Shown here: positions 54,589-63,956 of the stretch, piece by piece
Position numbering within the stretch: position 1 is the first letter of the stretch
How the letters are laid out: each line of letters opens with the position of its first letter
Assembly (NCBI GenBank): GCA_019311105.1
Contig: JAFDDA010000021.1
Location: 1-64,000 of the forward strand
Source: Deltaproteobacteria bacterium
GTDB lineage: Bacteria; Myxococcota_A; UBA9160; JAFDDA01
DNA length: 64,000 bases
Reading direction: 5' to 3'
Notes under the pieces: generated by a model
Told to the model about the DNA's origin: nothing
The model's database searches: none
What the model saw: only the letters and a program-made list of their open reading frames with translations
Made by a program: the position numbers and the translations under genes

Positions 54589-54622
54589 CGAAGGGCCGCG
54601 CGGCGATGCCGGCGGCCCTTCG
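54589..54622 (-). terminator. rho-independent terminator-like hairpin, minus strand
   Basis: CGAAGGGCCGC...GCGGCCCTTCG followed on the minus strand by TTTTT. Confidence 0.7.
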
Positions 54623-54631
54623 AAGAGTGGA

Positions 54632-54710
54632 TGGTGGAGCTGAGCGGGATGGAACTCTGACGCTCAGGCGGCGAGAGCACCCGCGAAGAAGCGAAATCAA
54701 TGACTTAGGG
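54632..54710 (-). repeat. att-like repeat copy A (degenerate tRNA 3' end plus conserved tail)
   Basis: tggtggagctgagcgggatggaac...aagaagcgaaatcaatgacttaggg; ~80-nt match to 56051-56130. Confidence 0.75.
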
Positions 54711-54747
54711 CGGGGTCGGCCGGTGAGACACCTGATAGGCTCGCTGC

Positions 54748-55947
54748 GTGCGTGCGATCGACGTCGTCGAGCAATCGATCGGAGATGGCCAGCGTGAGAT
54801 CGCCGGCGCGGCGGCCTTCGCGGACGGGGGCCGCGTCCCCGTCTACCTGCAGTTCCCCGATGCCGGGCCCCACCCTGCTCCGGGCGACGTCTTCCTCCCG
54901 ATGCTGCTCGTGCCGGCGATGGCTCTCCACGAGGATCTCCACATCGATGCCCCGGTCTCGCGCTCGCTGCTCGACGCCGCGAACGAGAGCGTCGGTCCGG
55001 TGCTCGCCGCGTTCCACCCGCGCCTCGAGCGCGTCGAGATCCGAGCCGCCGAGGTGGCCGACGACGCTGACGCTGTGGCGCCGCCGACGATCGGGTCGTT
55101 CTTCTCCCACGGCCTCGACAGCCGCTGGACGCTCATGCGGCGTCAGACCGAGCTCACCCACCTCGTCTACATCCACGGTTTCGACCTCAACCTGGATGCA
55201 TCCGGCGTCCTGGCCGAGCTGGCGAGCCGCGCCCGGGCCGTCGCCGACGCCGCGGGCCTCGAGTTGGTGGAGCTGCGTGGCAACGGGCGTCGCCAGCTCA
55301 ACCGCGCGGCCCAGCAGCGCTTCGACGCCCGCGGACCGCGCCAGCACTTCTCCGAGACGTTCCAGCTCGGCAGCCTGCTCACGAGCTTCGGACAGGGGCT
55401 GGCCGGCCAGGTGGGCAAGATGGTGATCGCGTCGAGCTGGCGGCTCGAGGACGGCGGGGCGCACGGCTCCCACCCGTGGATCGAGGGCAACTGGTCGACG
55501 CCGAGGATCCGCTTCGAGCTCGACGGCAGCCACGCCAGCCGGATCGAGCGGGCGCGCGAGCTGGCAGAGAAGCGGCCGGACCTGCTGCGCGGCGTGCGCG
55601 TCTGCTGGCGGCGGCCCCACCGGGTCGAGAACTGCGGCCAGTGCGGGAAGTGCCTGCGCCTGCGGATGGAGCTGGAGCTGGCCGACGTCGCTCCGGGCGA
55701 AGGCCCCTTCGACGACGCCCTCGACCACCGGGCCCTGCGCCGCGCGCGGATCGTGGTCTCGTCGAGCTTCTGGGGAGCAATCCTCGAGGAGGCTCGCCGG
55801 CGCGGCGACCGCGAGGCCCAGCGGACCGCCGAGATCCTGCTCGGCCTTCGCCGCCATCCGGGCCGCGAGCTCATGCGCGCCCGGCGCGAGTTGAGACGGG
55901 TGCGCCGCCGCGTGCGCACGCGCTTCGCGAGACGAACCCCCCGCTAG
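54748..55947 (+). CDS. PP-loop ATPase-like protein (QueC/ExsB-like) with zinc-binding Cys cluster
   Basis: IGSFFSHGLDSRWTLMRR (PP-loop-like SxGxDS); ENCGQCGKCLRLRMEL; GTG start. Confidence 0.72.
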   Translation: MRAIDVVEQSIGDGQREIAGAAAFADGGRVPVYLQFPDAGPHPAPGDVFLPMLLVPAMALHEDLHIDAPVSRSLLDAANESVGPVLAAFHPRLERVEIRAAEVADDADAVAPPTIGSFFSHGLDSRWTLMRRQTELTHLVYIHGFDLNLDASGVLAELASRARAVADAAGLELVELRGNGRRQLNRAAQQRFDARGPRQHFSETFQLGSLLTSFGQGLAGQVGKMVIASSWRLEDGGAHGSHPWIEGNWSTPRIRFELDGSHASRIERARELAEKRPDLLRGVRVCWRRPHRVENCGQCGKCLRLRMELELADVAPGEGPFDDALDHRALRRARIVVSSSFWGAILEEARRRGDREAQRTAEILLGLRRHPGRELMRARRELRRVRRRVRTRFARRTPR

Positions 55948-56011
55948 CCCTCGCTCCCCGGCATCGGCGTATCGGACGGCGCGAACCGGCTCTATCCGGC
56001 TCCGAACGAAA

Positions 56012-56042
56012 ACGGGGTTGGCGATGATCTCGCCAACCCCGT
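56012..56042 (-). terminator. rho-independent terminator-like hairpin, minus strand
   Basis: ACGGGGTTGGCGA-tgatc-TCGCCAACCCCGT (13-bp perfect stem) followed on the minus strand by TTTTCGTT. Confidence 0.78.
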
Positions 56043-56050
56043 GAAAAGAA

Positions 56051-56130
56051 TGGTGGAGCTGAGGGGGATCGAACCCCTGACCCTCAGACTGCCAGAGCAT
56101 CCGCCAAGAAGCGAAATCAATGACTTAGGG
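56051..56130 (-). repeat. att-like repeat copy B (tRNA 3' end plus conserved tail)
   Basis: Minus strand: CTAAGTCATTGATTTCGCTTCTTGGCGG...GTCAGGGGTTCGATCCCCCTCAGCTCCACCA. Confidence 0.8.
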
Positions 56131-56246: not shown

Positions 56247-56285
56247 CGAGACGCGTCTTGAACCGGCGACCCTCAGCTTGGGAAG
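56247..56285 (-). other. tRNA-Gly(CCC)-like fragment
   Basis: Minus strand CTTCCCAAGCTGAGGGTCGCCGGTTCAAGACGCG: anticodon arm to T-arm only. Confidence 0.5.
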
Positions 56286-56615: not shown

Positions 56616-57326
56616 TCAGCTGAATAGCTGTAGGAAATCGCTCGCCGCGATGATTCCGACCAGCTCATCGGAGTCAACCACAGGGAGGCACCCGATCTGT
56701 TCCCGGCTCATCCGCCGCGCAGCCTCCTCCAACGGCGCCGAGGAGTCGATCGACACGACGTCCGCTTTCATCGTTTCTTTGACGGTGAAGTGATCCAACG
56801 CTTGCTCGTGTGCGTGCTCCGACTGACCGAGCGACCACGACAACGCGTTGAACGCCAGGTCGCGGTCGCTGAGCACACCGGCGACGTTTCCATCCTCGTC
56901 GAGAACGACGAGGTGGCGGAGCTCACCGCTTCGCATCTGCTCGCTCGCCTTGGCCAGGCGATCGTTGCGCCCGACCGTTCGAACGTCACGTGTCATCACG
57001 TCGCCGACCGTCAGATCGAGCTGGATGTGACTCGGCTTGTGTTCTTCTGCGGCGGAGCGCGCAGCGGATGGCGTCTGCTCGCGGGCTGACGGCGCGTCTG
57101 CGCCAAACACCTCCGCTGCGCGACCGAGCGCAGCATCGAGTTCGGCATGAAGTCGAGCGACCTCGCGCTCAAGCGCTCCCATCACTCGACAGGAGGCGGT
57201 AATCGTGTCCGCGCTGCCATCCCTTGTGCACCCGTGTACACGGACCACGGCGATGCGAGCGCTAGGCCCCTCCTCCCCGTCCTGTCCTGTTTCGATCTCA
57301 AGGTCCAGGCTTCGCTCTACAGTCAC
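56616..57326 (-). CDS. tandem CBS-domain protein
   Basis: VGDVMTRDVRTVGRNDRLAKASEQMRSGELRHLVVLDEDGNVAGVLSDRDL ... VKETMKADVVSIDSSAPLEEAARRMSREQIGCLPVVDSDELVGIIAASDFL. Confidence 0.88.
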   Translation of the reverse strand: MTVERSLDLEIETGQDGEEGPSARIAVVRVHGCTRDGSADTITASCRVMGALEREVARLHAELDAALGRAAEVFGADAPSAREQTPSAARSAAEEHKPSHIQLDLTVGDVMTRDVRTVGRNDRLAKASEQMRSGELRHLVVLDEDGNVAGVLSDRDLAFNALSWSLGQSEHAHEQALDHFTVKETMKADVVSIDSSAPLEEAARRMSREQIGCLPVVDSDELVGIIAASDFLQLFS

Positions 57327-57515
57327 GCTCTCCTACCTCCCTGAACTTCCTGAGCTGCATCTCCCGTGCCACGCTGACTCGCGGTCTCTCCGAGCACGCA
57401 AGGCGTGGAGAGCTGCGGGGGTGAGACCAAAGGCCTCGCCCGGTGGCGATACGCCACAGCGCGAGGGGCCAGAACTTCCTGCAGTCGGCCGGGAGTTCCG
57501 AGACTTCGCGAACGC

Positions 57516-58049
57516 CTAGCGAACGTAGTCCGGGTAGCGACGCCGCTCGTACTTCGAATGTAGGTACGCGGTGAGATCGATCAGCTGCGCGACGGTCATG
57601 GTGTCGTTCGCGTCGTGCATGCGAGATCCGTCTCCCTCTTCCGTGTGCTCTCGCGGGAAGCGCCTCGAGATGTCGTGGGACGGATTGATGATCGAGGTCA
57701 AGAGCTGCCCGTAGGTCTCGATGCGCGACACTTCGCCGCCAAGCACGAGAGGCGGATGCGTGCGCAGTCCCTGTGGACCACTCGGCCCGCCGACAACGCC
57801 GTGACAGTTTGTACAGCTGAGTTCGACGAAGGCGGATAGGGCATTCAAGCTGCGTTCTTGCACCCGGGCCGAGTGGGGGCGTTGTGACAAACCCCTGCGG
57901 GGGCCACAACGGGGGTTCTTCCTCCACCTCTCCGCTGAACACTTCAACATCGCGAAGCCCGGCCTCGGTTTCATGGAGTACTTCGACCGGATCGAGAATT
58001 CTCTAGGCGCGGTCCTAGCAAACCGGTCCGCCATGCAGCGGCTCAACAA
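57516..58049 (-). CDS. c-type cytochrome-like protein, probably truncated at its N-terminus
   Basis: VELSCTNCHGVVGGP (CxxCH); no recognisable signal peptide. Confidence 0.6.
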   Translation of the reverse strand: MLSRCMADRFARTAPREFSIRSKYSMKPRPGFAMLKCSAERWRKNPRCGPRRGLSQRPHSARVQERSLNALSAFVELSCTNCHGVVGGPSGPQGLRTHPPLVLGGEVSRIETYGQLLTSIINPSHDISRRFPREHTEEGDGSRMHDANDTMTVAQLIDLTAYLHSKYERRRYPDYVR

Positions 58050-58209
58050 GGCACGCGTTGCGCTGAAGCACCACGGTGTTCTAGGTGCGCCTACGCCGAC
58101 GCAGACTAGGGCGCGGGTGTCACGAACTTCACCGAAAAGGCGGCCTGTGGAAGACCCGACGAGACCTGGCGAAGCGCTTCGGGTCCGATCTCGAGGCTTG
58201 AAAGGCGGA

Positions 58210-60150
<1,941 letters not shown>

Positions 60151-60180
60151 CGCGGGGACAGAATAGCCTGAAGTTGCGTC

Positions 60181-60570
60181 CCCACCCTGCCCGAGGCCTT
60201 CGAGCCCGGCCCGGAGGTGTTGGTCCTCGGCGAGCTCGATGCCTCAAACTTCCGCGCACGCGAGTGGCGACGAATCGCCAAGCGGGCAGGGGTCGGCCTC
60301 CGTCGCCCGAAGGATCTGCGCGACACGTTCGCGAGCCAGCTCCTGACCCTCGGCGTGCCGCTGACCTACATCAGCCGCCAGCTCGGCCACCGCCAGGTGG
60401 CAACCACTGAGAAGCACTACGCCCGCTACCAGGGAGATGAGTACGTCGATCCGCTTCGCCGCGAGCCGTGGGAAGTGCCTGCGGACTTCCTGGCTCGTAC
60501 GTTCGCGGAACAAAGTGGCCACGAATTTGACCACAGTGGCGTCTTGGGGAATCGGGGAGACGCGCAACCC
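60181..60570 (+). pseudogene. C-terminal fragment of a tyrosine recombinase/phage integrase
   Basis: RPKDLRDTFASQLLTLGVPLTYISRQLGHRQVATTEKHYARY; N-terminal half absent. Confidence 0.85.
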
Positions 60571-60581
60571 CGCGAAAGGAA

Positions 60582-60635
60582 TGGTGGAGCTGAGGGGGAT
60601 CGAACCCCTGCCCCTCAGACTGCCAGAAGTCGGGA
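60582..60635 (-). repeat. att-like repeat copy C (tRNA 3' end)
   Basis: tggtggagctgagggggatcgaacccctgcccctcagactgccaga, near-identical to copy B; adjacent to the integrase fragment. Confidence 0.8.
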
Positions 60636-60939
60636 AGCCCAAGAAATAACGGGAGCTTACGCTCAGTGGCCGGCGAGCAGCGGCGAGGGGCGGCACATGG
60701 CGGCACCGATCGCGGCTCCCGGCTCTATCCGGCTCTGGCTAATGGGCGCACCCCACCCCCCTGGGCGAGTTGTGACTCCTCCGCCCGACAGGCCGCAAGA
60801 AGCAAATGAACCCGGGCGCGGTCCCGCGGCATAGCACCCCTACCCCAAGGGGCCCCCGCCCCCTTCGAGGTCAGCGACTGTGCCGCACGCACAACGCGCC
60901 GAGAGAAAAAGGCGGATGGGCGCACCCCCGCGGATAGGG

Positions 60940-61030: not shown

Positions 61031-61193
61031 CGGGGCCTCCTTGTGGGCGACACGGCGATGGTAGGCGGGCGCTCAGAACACGGCGAATCGTCTCGGCGGC
61101 GAGGCGAATTGCAATCTGAGAGGGTTGTGTGAAAGAATACCAGCCGTTGAGTCGGACCGAGTCTCGTCGAGACGAACGTGGTGTGGGAGCACT

Positions 61194-63956
61194 ATGAGTT
61201 GCACCGATCTTGGCCGGAAGCCCCAAGCAGTCCTCGAGGCGAGAACCATCGCCCGGAGCGCTGCCCTCCTGCTCTGCTTGCTCGGCACCCTCGGCCTCGG
61301 GCCGGCGTCGTGTGAACGCGACGTCTGCCGCGAGCTGTCTCGGGCGCAAGCTCGGGTCAAGCAGCTCGAAGCTCGCAACGAGCGGCTCGCCGGGAAGCTC
61401 CACAAGAAGGTTCACGCCTTTCAAGGTGTGGGTCGCGGGCATCGACTCCATGGCGAACTGGAACCCGGGAGCGAGGACCTGGCACGACGGACCGAGGTCC
61501 ACGCCCGGCAGCTGGAGTTGGCTCGCCAACGCGTCTTCGAGATCTCTGCCGGACTGGGCCCTGAACAAGGTTGCTCCGGTCCGAGCCTCTTCTTCGTCGC
61601 TCCCGACGAGACGGCACCTTTGCTCGAGCAGCTACCGCCGACCTTCGATGCGATGCCCCGACCGCTCGCCAGCGCGAGGGATCATCGAGGACACGAGGGC
61701 GATTTCGTGGCAGACGAAATCGTCGTCCCGACGAGTGTCGCCGCCGCGGTCGCCGCACGCTGGAATGGCGTCGTGCTCGAGGAGTTCGCAGTGGCCGCAC
61801 CGGGTGCGACCGCCTTCTCACTGATTCGTGTGGACACCTCCGTCGTCGAGACGTCTGAGCTGGCCTCACAGGTCGATGCACTCTCCGCCGCGGAGAGCTC
61901 CGCCGTGCAGGTTTCGAGCGAAGCCGGCCTGCGGCTGCTCGCCCTCGTGGCGAGCGAAGCGACCGCAGGCAACGAGATCGCGATCAACTGGGTCGGGCGC
62001 GGAGCGGACTTCGACGACGGCCTCCTGGCCGAGAGCTTCGTCGGCCCGATCTCTGGGATCGACTGGAGCACTGGGCCGACGATCTGGAGTCGGAATCCCT
62101 ACGATTGGGTGCACTTCTCCGAGGCTGCGACCCAGGGTATGGGTGTGACCGAAGCTTGGACCGCGATGGATGCTGCCGGCGCCCTCCGCGAGCGGGTGGG
62201 GCTTGCCATCCTGGACATGGGCTTCCGGCCCGATGTGAACGGCGACTTTCCCGACGGCTTCCGTGCCTTCAGCATCGTGGCGGACAGCGACCCGCTGCTG
62301 AGCGAGAACCGATATGGCTGTGGTGGCGGGAATCCCTGCCGCTGGCACGGAACGGGCGTTCTCAACGCAGCCGCCGGCGCGGTCGACAACGAGATCGCCG
62401 CCGCCGGGACGGGCGGCCCGGTGGCCGACGCGATTGCGGTCTATCTGCTCTACGACCTGTTCTCGACGGTGATCGCTCTCGATCAGGCGCGCATCGCCGG
62501 CGCCCGCGTGGCGAACATGTCCTTCGGCGGCTGGGTTCCGGCCGGTCTCGAGTGGAGCATGCTGCCCTTCGATCCGATCTTTCGAACCCTCCACGCGGAG
62601 GGAATGGTGCTCGTAGCGGCGGCAGGAAACGACTCGGGCAACGTCGATGCGGCGGCCTGCATCTTCGACCTCTGTTGGGAGGAGGGCTTCAACTATCCGT
62701 GCGAGATGGGAGAAGTCCTGTGCATCGGAGCTCTCGCGCACGACTCCCTGGGCCGCGCCGATTACTCGAACTTCGGCTCCCCCGATCGCGGCTTCGACAA
62801 CGGCACCGTGGACCTGTTCGCGCCCGGGCTGATCCCAACTGGACCGGACCCCGACGCTCCCGGTTCGTCCGTCCAGGAGAAGCGCGGCACGAGCCTTGCC
62901 AGCCCGTATGCAGCAGGCGTGGCCGCGCTGCTCTTCGCGAGCGATCCTTCGATTTCGGCCGGCGATGTAGCGAGCATCCTCGTGGATACCGGTCGTCGCA
63001 ATCCGGACGACGACACCGTGAATCGGGTGATCTCACCTCGCGTGGGCGTGCAAGAGACGCTCAGCCGGGTGTGCCCCTGCGCTTCGATCGCATCGCCCGG
63101 CCGCGCCGAGATCCTGCCTGAAGGACTCTTCGTCTTCGAAGGCCGCAGCTACGCCCCGGCAACCACGGTAGCTTCTGCCGACTGGACGATCCGCGAGGGC
63201 GACCCGTCGGGACCGATCGTTTCCATGGCATCCGGCCTGATCGCACCGATCCTGGTCCGGGGTGACGGTTTCTACTTCGCCGATCTGACGGTGGCCTACG
63301 GCAACGGAAGCGTTGCCTCCGATACCGTCCCGTTTCGGATCGAGAATGGTCTGCCGACGGCGAACATCACCTCGCCACCCCAGGGGTCAACCTTCACGCG
63401 GACCGAGCAGGTCGTGCTGCGTGTCGACGCCTCCGATCCCGGCTACCCCGAGGGGGTTCCGAACTCCAACATCGATTGGTTCGTGGACGGCGTGCCCTTC
63501 GAGAGTGGCGACGACCGACTCGTCGACTTCTCGGGCGTGCCGCTCGGGTTGACGAACCTCGAAGTAGTCGTCGACGACGGATTTGCGATGGCGAGCGATT
63601 CGGTCGTAATCAACCTGATCGAAGGTGGTCCGAACGGACCGCCGAGCGCCCGAATCGTCGAGCCGGGCGACGGCGAACGCTTCGACGCCATGCCGGTGAG
63701 CGGAGGCTTTGCCCACTTCGTGCGCTTCCGGGTCTCGGCCAACGATCCCGAGGGCGACCCGCTTACCATCATCTGGGAGGCCTCACAGGGAGGCGGGCCC
63801 TTCGTGGAGATCGGCCGGGGCCACGAGATCATCGAGCGCTTCGTAGTTCCGTGCTTCGGCGACAACTTCACCATCCGCGTTCGCGTCTCGGACGGGATCA
63901 ACGCCCCGCGCCAGGACGCGATCCAGATCTTCACCAACTCTCAGCCTCTATGCTGA
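61194..63956 (+). CDS. secreted S8-family (subtilisin-like) serine peptidase
   Basis: GLAILDMGF (Asp), CRWHGTGVLNAAAG (His), VLVAAAGND (Asn), GTSLASPYAAGVAAL (Ser); Ig-like C-terminal repeats. Confidence 0.9.
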   Translation: MSCTDLGRKPQAVLEARTIARSAALLLCLLGTLGLGPASCERDVCRELSRAQARVKQLEARNERLAGKLHKKVHAFQGVGRGHRLHGELEPGSEDLARRTEVHARQLELARQRVFEISAGLGPEQGCSGPSLFFVAPDETAPLLEQLPPTFDAMPRPLASARDHRGHEGDFVADEIVVPTSVAAAVAARWNGVVLEEFAVAAPGATAFSLIRVDTSVVETSELASQVDALSAAESSAVQVSSEAGLRLLALVASEATAGNEIAINWVGRGADFDDGLLAESFVGPISGIDWSTGPTIWSRNPYDWVHFSEAATQGMGVTEAWTAMDAAGALRERVGLAILDMGFRPDVNGDFPDGFRAFSIVADSDPLLSENRYGCGGGNPCRWHGTGVLNAAAGAVDNEIAAAGTGGPVADAIAVYLLYDLFSTVIALDQARIAGARVANMSFGGWVPAGLEWSMLPFDPIFRTLHAEGMVLVAAAGNDSGNVDAAACIFDLCWEEGFNYPCEMGEVLCIGALAHDSLGRADYSNFGSPDRGFDNGTVDLFAPGLIPTGPDPDAPGSSVQEKRGTSLASPYAAGVAALLFASDPSISAGDVASILVDTGRRNPDDDTVNRVISPRVGVQETLSRVCPCASIASPGRAEILPEGLFVFEGRSYAPATTVASADWTIREGDPSGPIVSMASGLIAPILVRGDGFYFADLTVAYGNGSVASDTVPFRIENGLPTANITSPPQGSTFTRTEQVVLRVDASDPGYPEGVPNSNIDWFVDGVPFESGDDRLVDFSGVPLGLTNLEVVVDDGFAMASDSVVINLIEGGPNGPPSARIVEPGDGERFDAMPVSGGFAHFVRFRVSANDPEGDPLTIIWEASQGGGPFVEIGRGHEIIERFVVPCFGDNFTIRVRVSDGINAPRQDAIQIFTNSQPLC

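Follow-up and report, generated by a model that had tools for sequence, protein, structure and literature searches.

The 64,000-nt stretch of DNA analysed here (the window) belongs to contig C142 of a 4.76-Mb genome (G000) assembled in 258 contigs. Two direct repeats, A (54631–54710) and B (56050–56130), align with 88% identity and one gap and enclose a single good gene, hereafter the cargo gene, which encodes a PP-loop-type protein (Table 1). Both repeats contain an identical 25-mer, AAGAAGCGAAATCAATGACTTAGGG (54686–54710 in A and 56106–56130 in B), and beyond the CCA end of each follows a minus-strand, terminator-like hairpin with a T-run. In shuffled sequence, no match of the A/B kind is expected. 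A first-pass annotation had described these ~80-nt repeats, the shared 25-mer, the two hairpins and the lone PP-loop gene, all of which were found again as described, and had read the layout as a ~1.4-kb single-gene cassette left between two att sites derived from a tRNA 3′ end. It had missed a third copy of the repeat, termed C, and a tRNA-Gly fragment, both of which are included in the table.

Table 1 Features at repeats A, B and C and in the intervals between them.
Feature	Position	Strand	Basis
Terminator-like hairpin with T-run on the CCA side of copy A	54589–54622	−	sequence, alignment
Copy A core, decayed tRNA-Ala 3′ half (nt 32–76, 82%)	54632–54675	−	
Copy A arm, ending AAATCAATGACTTAGGG; 2 differences in 35 nt from the B arm	54676–54710	none	
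Cargo gene; PP-loop-type protein of 399 aa, motifs SHGLDS and C-x9-C-x2-C-x2-C	54748–55947	+	
Sequence beyond the B terminator, within the 131-nt stretch resembling C52; possible second arm	55973–56011	none	
tRNA-Ala(GGC) terminator carried by copy B	56012–56042	−	
Copy B core, tRNA-Ala(GGC) nt 32–76, 45/45	56051–56095	−	
Copy B arm, ending AAATCAATGACTTAGGG	56096–56130	none	
tRNA-Gly 3′-half fragment (nt 36–69), further att remnant	56248–56281	−	BLAST
Tyrosine integrase C-terminal remnant running into copy C	60172–60580	+	
Copy C core, tRNA-Ala(GGC) nt 32–76, 98%	60582–60626	−	
Copy C arm, second type, GCGGCAC-like repeats	60627–60735	none	

The tRNA origin of the repeats could be sharpened by BLAST: copy B is identical to nt 32–76 of the intact tRNA-Ala(GGC) gene, while copy A matches the same part at 82%, in agreement with the earlier view of A as the decayed copy. 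The breakpoint at nt 32 is the first base of the anticodon loop. A genome-wide search for the intact donor tRNA, as suggested in the first-pass annotation, yielded one copy of tRNA-Ala(GGC) on another contig (G000:C149:8223–8298); a join of C142 and C149 by contig-end overlap was not found, other contig pairs of the assembly overlapping by 114 nt. The hairpin at B is the terminator of tRNA-Ala(GGC) itself (95% over 83 nt), whereas the one at A differs from it. Copy B further resembles a copy on contig C52 over 131 nt at 94% (55973–56103 versus C52:2093–2223), and this copy, like B, also bears the terminator of tRNA-Ala(GGC). The presumed overlap is unlike between A and B (CTGGCAG in B), so that, to judge by the changed overlap of A, the two sites probably cannot recombine with each other at present. 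A mosaic structure of A, with an arm younger than its core, was considered and rejected, as the divergences of 8/45 and 2/35 do not differ significantly (p = 0.17).

Next to the tRNA-derived part, an arm of 35 nt is common to A and B, and its motif occurs nowhere else in this genome. Outside of it, the pattern TCGAACC-N25..55-AAATCAATGACTTA was found in 62 genome contigs, mostly proteobacterial, and in 55 viral contigs; as control patterns in the viral contigs, the reversed motif gave 1 match and its reverse complement 5. True tRNA 3′ halves, with CCA and a paired T-stem and from many tRNA species, make up 84 of the 117 matches, and at 44 of these 84 a tyrosine integrase, detected with an HMM built from the integrases of this genome, lies at a distance of up to 1.5 kb, often 69–150 nt. 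A one-mismatch version of the arm motif flanks a tRNA-Arg(TCG)-like stretch in the relative G034. Since the motif adjoins tRNA 3′ halves and integrases elsewhere, we read the 25-mer as the element-side arm of an attachment site. The concern that the repeat might be a dispersed high-copy sequence unrelated to integration was checked and proved unfounded. No paper on the 13-mer AATCAATGACTTA turned up in the literature, which proves nothing. The AAATCAATGACTTA arm beside a tRNA 3′ half offers a practical marker for such sites in raw sequence.

Further tRNA fragments came to light when 44 predicted tRNA genes were compared by BLAST with 422 kb of the contigs of this genome. Copy C lies 4.5 kb past B, directly behind a remnant that covers the C-terminus of a tyrosine integrase (PF00589, 3.6e-8, profile positions 112–167 of 172), and its arm type is common to the tRNA-Lys fragment as well as to att fragments of the relatives G005, G010, G017 and G043. 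Altogether, no fewer than six att remnants made of tRNA fragments lie in the last 11.4 kb of the contig (A, B, Gly 56248, C, Lys 64024, Gly 64248). A short piece of tRNA-Asp follows at 64548; this piece, Gly 64248 and the Lys fragment are located just beyond the window. Fragments of Lys, Thr and Gly tRNAs start near nt 32–36 and those of Asp and Glu at nt 46–52. Crossovers in the anticodon loop and in the T-arm are known as classes of tRNA-targeting integrases (PMC4383910), and the match of the fragment starts to these two classes argues for an origin as integrase att sites.

Several observations were made in passing. At the other end of the window, a tRNA-Glu(TTC) 3′ fragment (nt 46–76, 31/31, at 1460–1490) represents another att-type remnant. 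Between B and C, the stretch 56616–60150 carries one CBS-domain, one cytochrome c-like and one full ftsH-like gene, all on the minus strand and with a G+C content below that of the left flank; it may be another accreted unit, which ends on the right in the integrase remnant. A subtilase gene (61125–63956, plus strand) alone fills the interval from copy C to the tRNA-Lys fragment (C142:64024–64068) and is again a single gene directed toward a tRNA 3′ end. Contig C140 carries, within 1.4 kb (L053:703–2072), a 3′ fragment of tRNA-SeC alongside two full-length tRNA-SeC-like genes, and a further tRNA-SeC fragment lies on C52; tRNA-SeC thus seems to be an integration target in this genome as well. 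Finally, a dispersed repeat of 70–90 nt at 57828–57920 (GCGGATAGGGCATTCAAGCTGCGTT...GGGCGTTATG...) has about 30 copies in the genome, of which seven share one orientation on contig C254. Some of the copies are directly adjacent to degraded integrase C-termini or sit ~200 nt from tRNA fragments. As an attC site this 72-nt repeat was rejected, because three of four copies fold no better than shuffled sequences.

The relatives available for searching all come from other families of the order or class, and none belongs to the same genus. The pair of tRNA-Ala(GGC) and tRNA-Leu(CAA) is conserved among them, while the genes left of A showed no synteny with the tRNA-Ala flanks in relatives beyond weak sulfatase matches. 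Displaced 3′ fragments of tRNA-Ala(GGC) occur singly in G017, G043, G001 and G014, as two on separate contigs in G003, and as two together with the intact tRNA in one orientation in G005. Two fragments in G010 enclose a small element with a CHRD-domain gene, an HTH_17 protein and a full integrase. In G029, four fragments and the intact tRNA-Ala(GGC) gene lie within 7.7 kb (L292:5902–13589, contig C47). Each of the three intervals nearest to the tRNA spans 0.8–1.1 kb and contains exactly one gene, directed toward the tRNA, and no integrase was detected in the stretch of the array. The layout of A–B is therefore repeated three times over in G029. Two of the three genes in these intervals look like paralogues.

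The gene family represented by the cargo gene is sporadic: relatives were found in 10 of 91 genomes of the class and, at a stricter limit, in 10 of 379 genomes of the phylum, so that gene and repeats are not syntenic in all relatives. One genome, G079, accounts for eight matches, and on one of its contigs (C493; L076:76–3622) three diverged members of the PP-loop family follow one another in tandem. No close PP-loop relatives were detected in a wider collection of genome contigs and none in phage records; plasmids gave one partial match at 27%. The protein itself matched no Pfam, NCBIfam or PADLOC model. In an alignment of 18 members, the GxD core is invariant and the C-x9-C-x2-C-x2-C cluster conserved, C286, C296, C299 and C302 being kept in at least 90% of the family. 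Only the window copy, with SHG, departs from the motif [ST]GG found in all other members; SGGLDS is retained by two paralogues that this genome encodes. Against both paralogues, third codon positions of the cargo gene differ more than first or second positions, which points to some protein-level constraint on the family.

An AlphaFold2 model of the protein (pLDDT 91, pTM 0.89) was used for the structural search that the first-pass annotation had suggested. Foldseek matches were weak (best E 0.01); those of high probability include MnmA, TrmU and GMP synthetase, and matches of the asparagine-synthetase type are also present. A profile search gave a weak match to QatC (E 0.012). Two distant relatives of the gene adjoin polysaccharide-type genes, their neighbours encoding an asparagine synthase-like enzyme and a glycosyltransferase, and a Wzx-like flippase. 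The SHGLDS and NCGQCGKC motifs were recognised correctly in the first-pass annotation, and its label ‘QueC/ExsB-like’ holds only at the level of the superfamily. The PP-loop-type motif and the four-cysteine zinc cluster near the C-terminus are common to the cargo protein and to PP-loop proteins of the QueC/QatC type. Membership in QueC/ExsB was rejected, as no family model matches and the motif reads SHGLDS and not SGGxDS; an identity as the defence protein QatC was likewise discarded, since PADLOC gave nothing and the match to QatC structures is just a weak profile match. Unlike these proteins, the cargo protein belongs to a family of its own, with an extra N-terminal region and, in the window copy, the first glycine of the PP-motif changed to histidine. 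The family motif [ST]GGxD supports assignment to the PP-loop superfamily. The cargo protein probably represents a family of ATP-pyrophosphatase-type enzymes not described so far, and the change from SGG to SHG may have altered catalysis in the window copy. This family, which lacks a Pfam entry, may carry out activation or amidation reactions that are new to the literature.

How did a single gene come to lie between two copies of the same tRNA 3′ half? We consider it likely that A–B is an att-bounded, CIME-like unit without integrase, reduced to one cargo gene, within an array formed by tandem accretion at tRNA-Ala(GGC). That A and B behave as integrase attachment sites is supported by the breakpoint in the anticodon loop, the donor tRNA, the shared arm, the integrase remnant at C and the tandem fragments in relatives. 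A, B and C each extend from a fixed internal point to the tRNA 3′ end, and an adjoining integrase is provided by the remnant at copy C and by the 44 of 84 arm-motif sites elsewhere; within A–B no integrase was found, the PP-loop gene standing there alone. The att sites of the first-pass reading are thereby supported, whereas the arrival of A–B as one cassette and the order of events are what we infer. According to this model, an element targeting tRNA-Ala(GGC) would carry an attP with a copy of tRNA nt 32–76 and the terminator. Its integration would restore an intact tRNA at one end and displace the 3′ half of the host gene to the other, and repeated integration at the restored tRNA would push older units outward. 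The result would be a row of 3′ halves in the same orientation, each adjoined by the arm of the element that came after it. A would be the oldest, decayed displaced end and B a later, intact one, and the 1.4-kb stretch between them would stem from an element that lost, or never had, an integrase and kept one gene. The 3′ end of this gene points at the tRNA terminator, the place taken by the integrase in G010 and at copy C.

Alternatively, the PP-loop gene could be a resident of the chromosome that was caught between two unrelated att scars by deletions or rearrangements, in which case an A–B cassette never existed. With a G+C content of 73%, the gene equals the left chromosomal flank, so composition gives no sign of foreignness. 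Neither of the two paralogues in this genome has adjoining tRNA fragments, and an exact empty site was not seen among the genomes from other families of the order and class. Nevertheless, we regard this scenario as unlikely: A and B share the core and the same arm, which is unique to them in this genome, the gene fills the interval tightly (starting 37 nt after the arm of A and ending 65 nt before the terminator of B), its family is sporadic and the same one-gene layout recurs three times in G029.

A bolder idea builds on the G029 array, in which single genes of one direction occupy the intervals, no integrase came to light and the layout is matched by A–B. Together with the same arm at successive sites, this would fit an integron-like process, in which single-gene cassettes with a tRNA 3′ half as recombination site were moved in trans, by an integrase supplied from another locus, and stacked at tRNA-Ala(GGC). 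Taken as a general statement, tRNA-Ala(GGC) would serve in this order as an integron-like platform, where single-gene cassettes with a shared arm at the start and with a terminator and tRNA 3′ half at the end are inserted one by one by a trans-acting integrase, the gene always pointing toward the tRNA. We hold this general statement to be quite unlikely and such an origin of the window locus to be very unlikely, as examples are few, this target is occupied in G010 by an ordinary element that encodes an integrase itself, the loss of integrases from ordinary elements gives the same picture, and no cassette was seen in common between genomes. Plain segmental duplication of A or B, with a tRNA likeness unrelated to integration here, would explain why A and B are alike over the whole 80 nt, arm included, but is almost certainly wrong, since the homology breaks off precisely at the CCA end of the tRNA and, on the other side, immediately behind the arm motif, the CCA-side terminators differ, and fragments of this type, with their fixed breakpoints, are seen for several tRNAs.

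Scars of mobile DNA in tRNA genes are a known way in which genomes collect genes, and the locus is a small, tidy example of this known kind of accretion at a tRNA site. As an att-bounded unit, A–B is unusually small: on the accretion reading, it shows a tRNA-integrating element pared down to one gene and 1.4 kb that can still be read from its scars. The fragments in relatives mark tRNA-Ala(GGC) as a site of repeated insertion throughout an order that has been little studied.

Among known systems, CIMEs and the tandem accretion of ICE- and IME-related elements (reviewed in PMC5704250) come closest, with which A–B has in common the att sites on both sides, the loss of integration genes and the tandem arrangement at one tRNA. 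Repeats A and B provide the two flanking att sites, and between them lie one gene and no integration or transfer genes. Unlike CIMEs, A–B measures 1.4 kb, contains one gene and bears no relic of conjugation functions or a relaxase; as the definition of a CIME asks for functional att sites and a known parent ICE or IME, and A has a decayed core and a presumed overlap unlike that of B, A–B is likened to CIMEs by layout only. The tRNA-targeted islands described with Islander (PMC4383910) share the tyrosine-integrase target in the anticodon loop, the displaced 3′ fragment as end marker and the tandem arrays, but in the present genome A–B and the intact tRNA lie on different contigs, the unit has no integrase and its size is below the 2-kb limit of Islander. 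Integron cassette arrays and CALINs are somewhat alike in having single genes of the same orientation between repeated recombination sites. In A–B, however, these sites are tRNA 3′ halves and not attC, no integron integrase was found with them, and the integrase remnant at copy C scored 18.7 bits against an integron-integrase cut-off of 265. Additive flexible islands also have small gene cassettes that end in direct repeats of partial tRNAs (PMC10872708, PMC7771536). Those of Methylophilaceae range from 330 bp to 42 kb with 1 to 63 CDS (PMC10872708), and ‘Ca. Actinomarinales’ harbour tRNA-targeted gene cassettes with tell-tale tRNA direct repeats (PMC7771536). Compared to these islands, which belong to other lineages and other tRNAs, the fragment in A–B adds the terminator and a defined arm motif.
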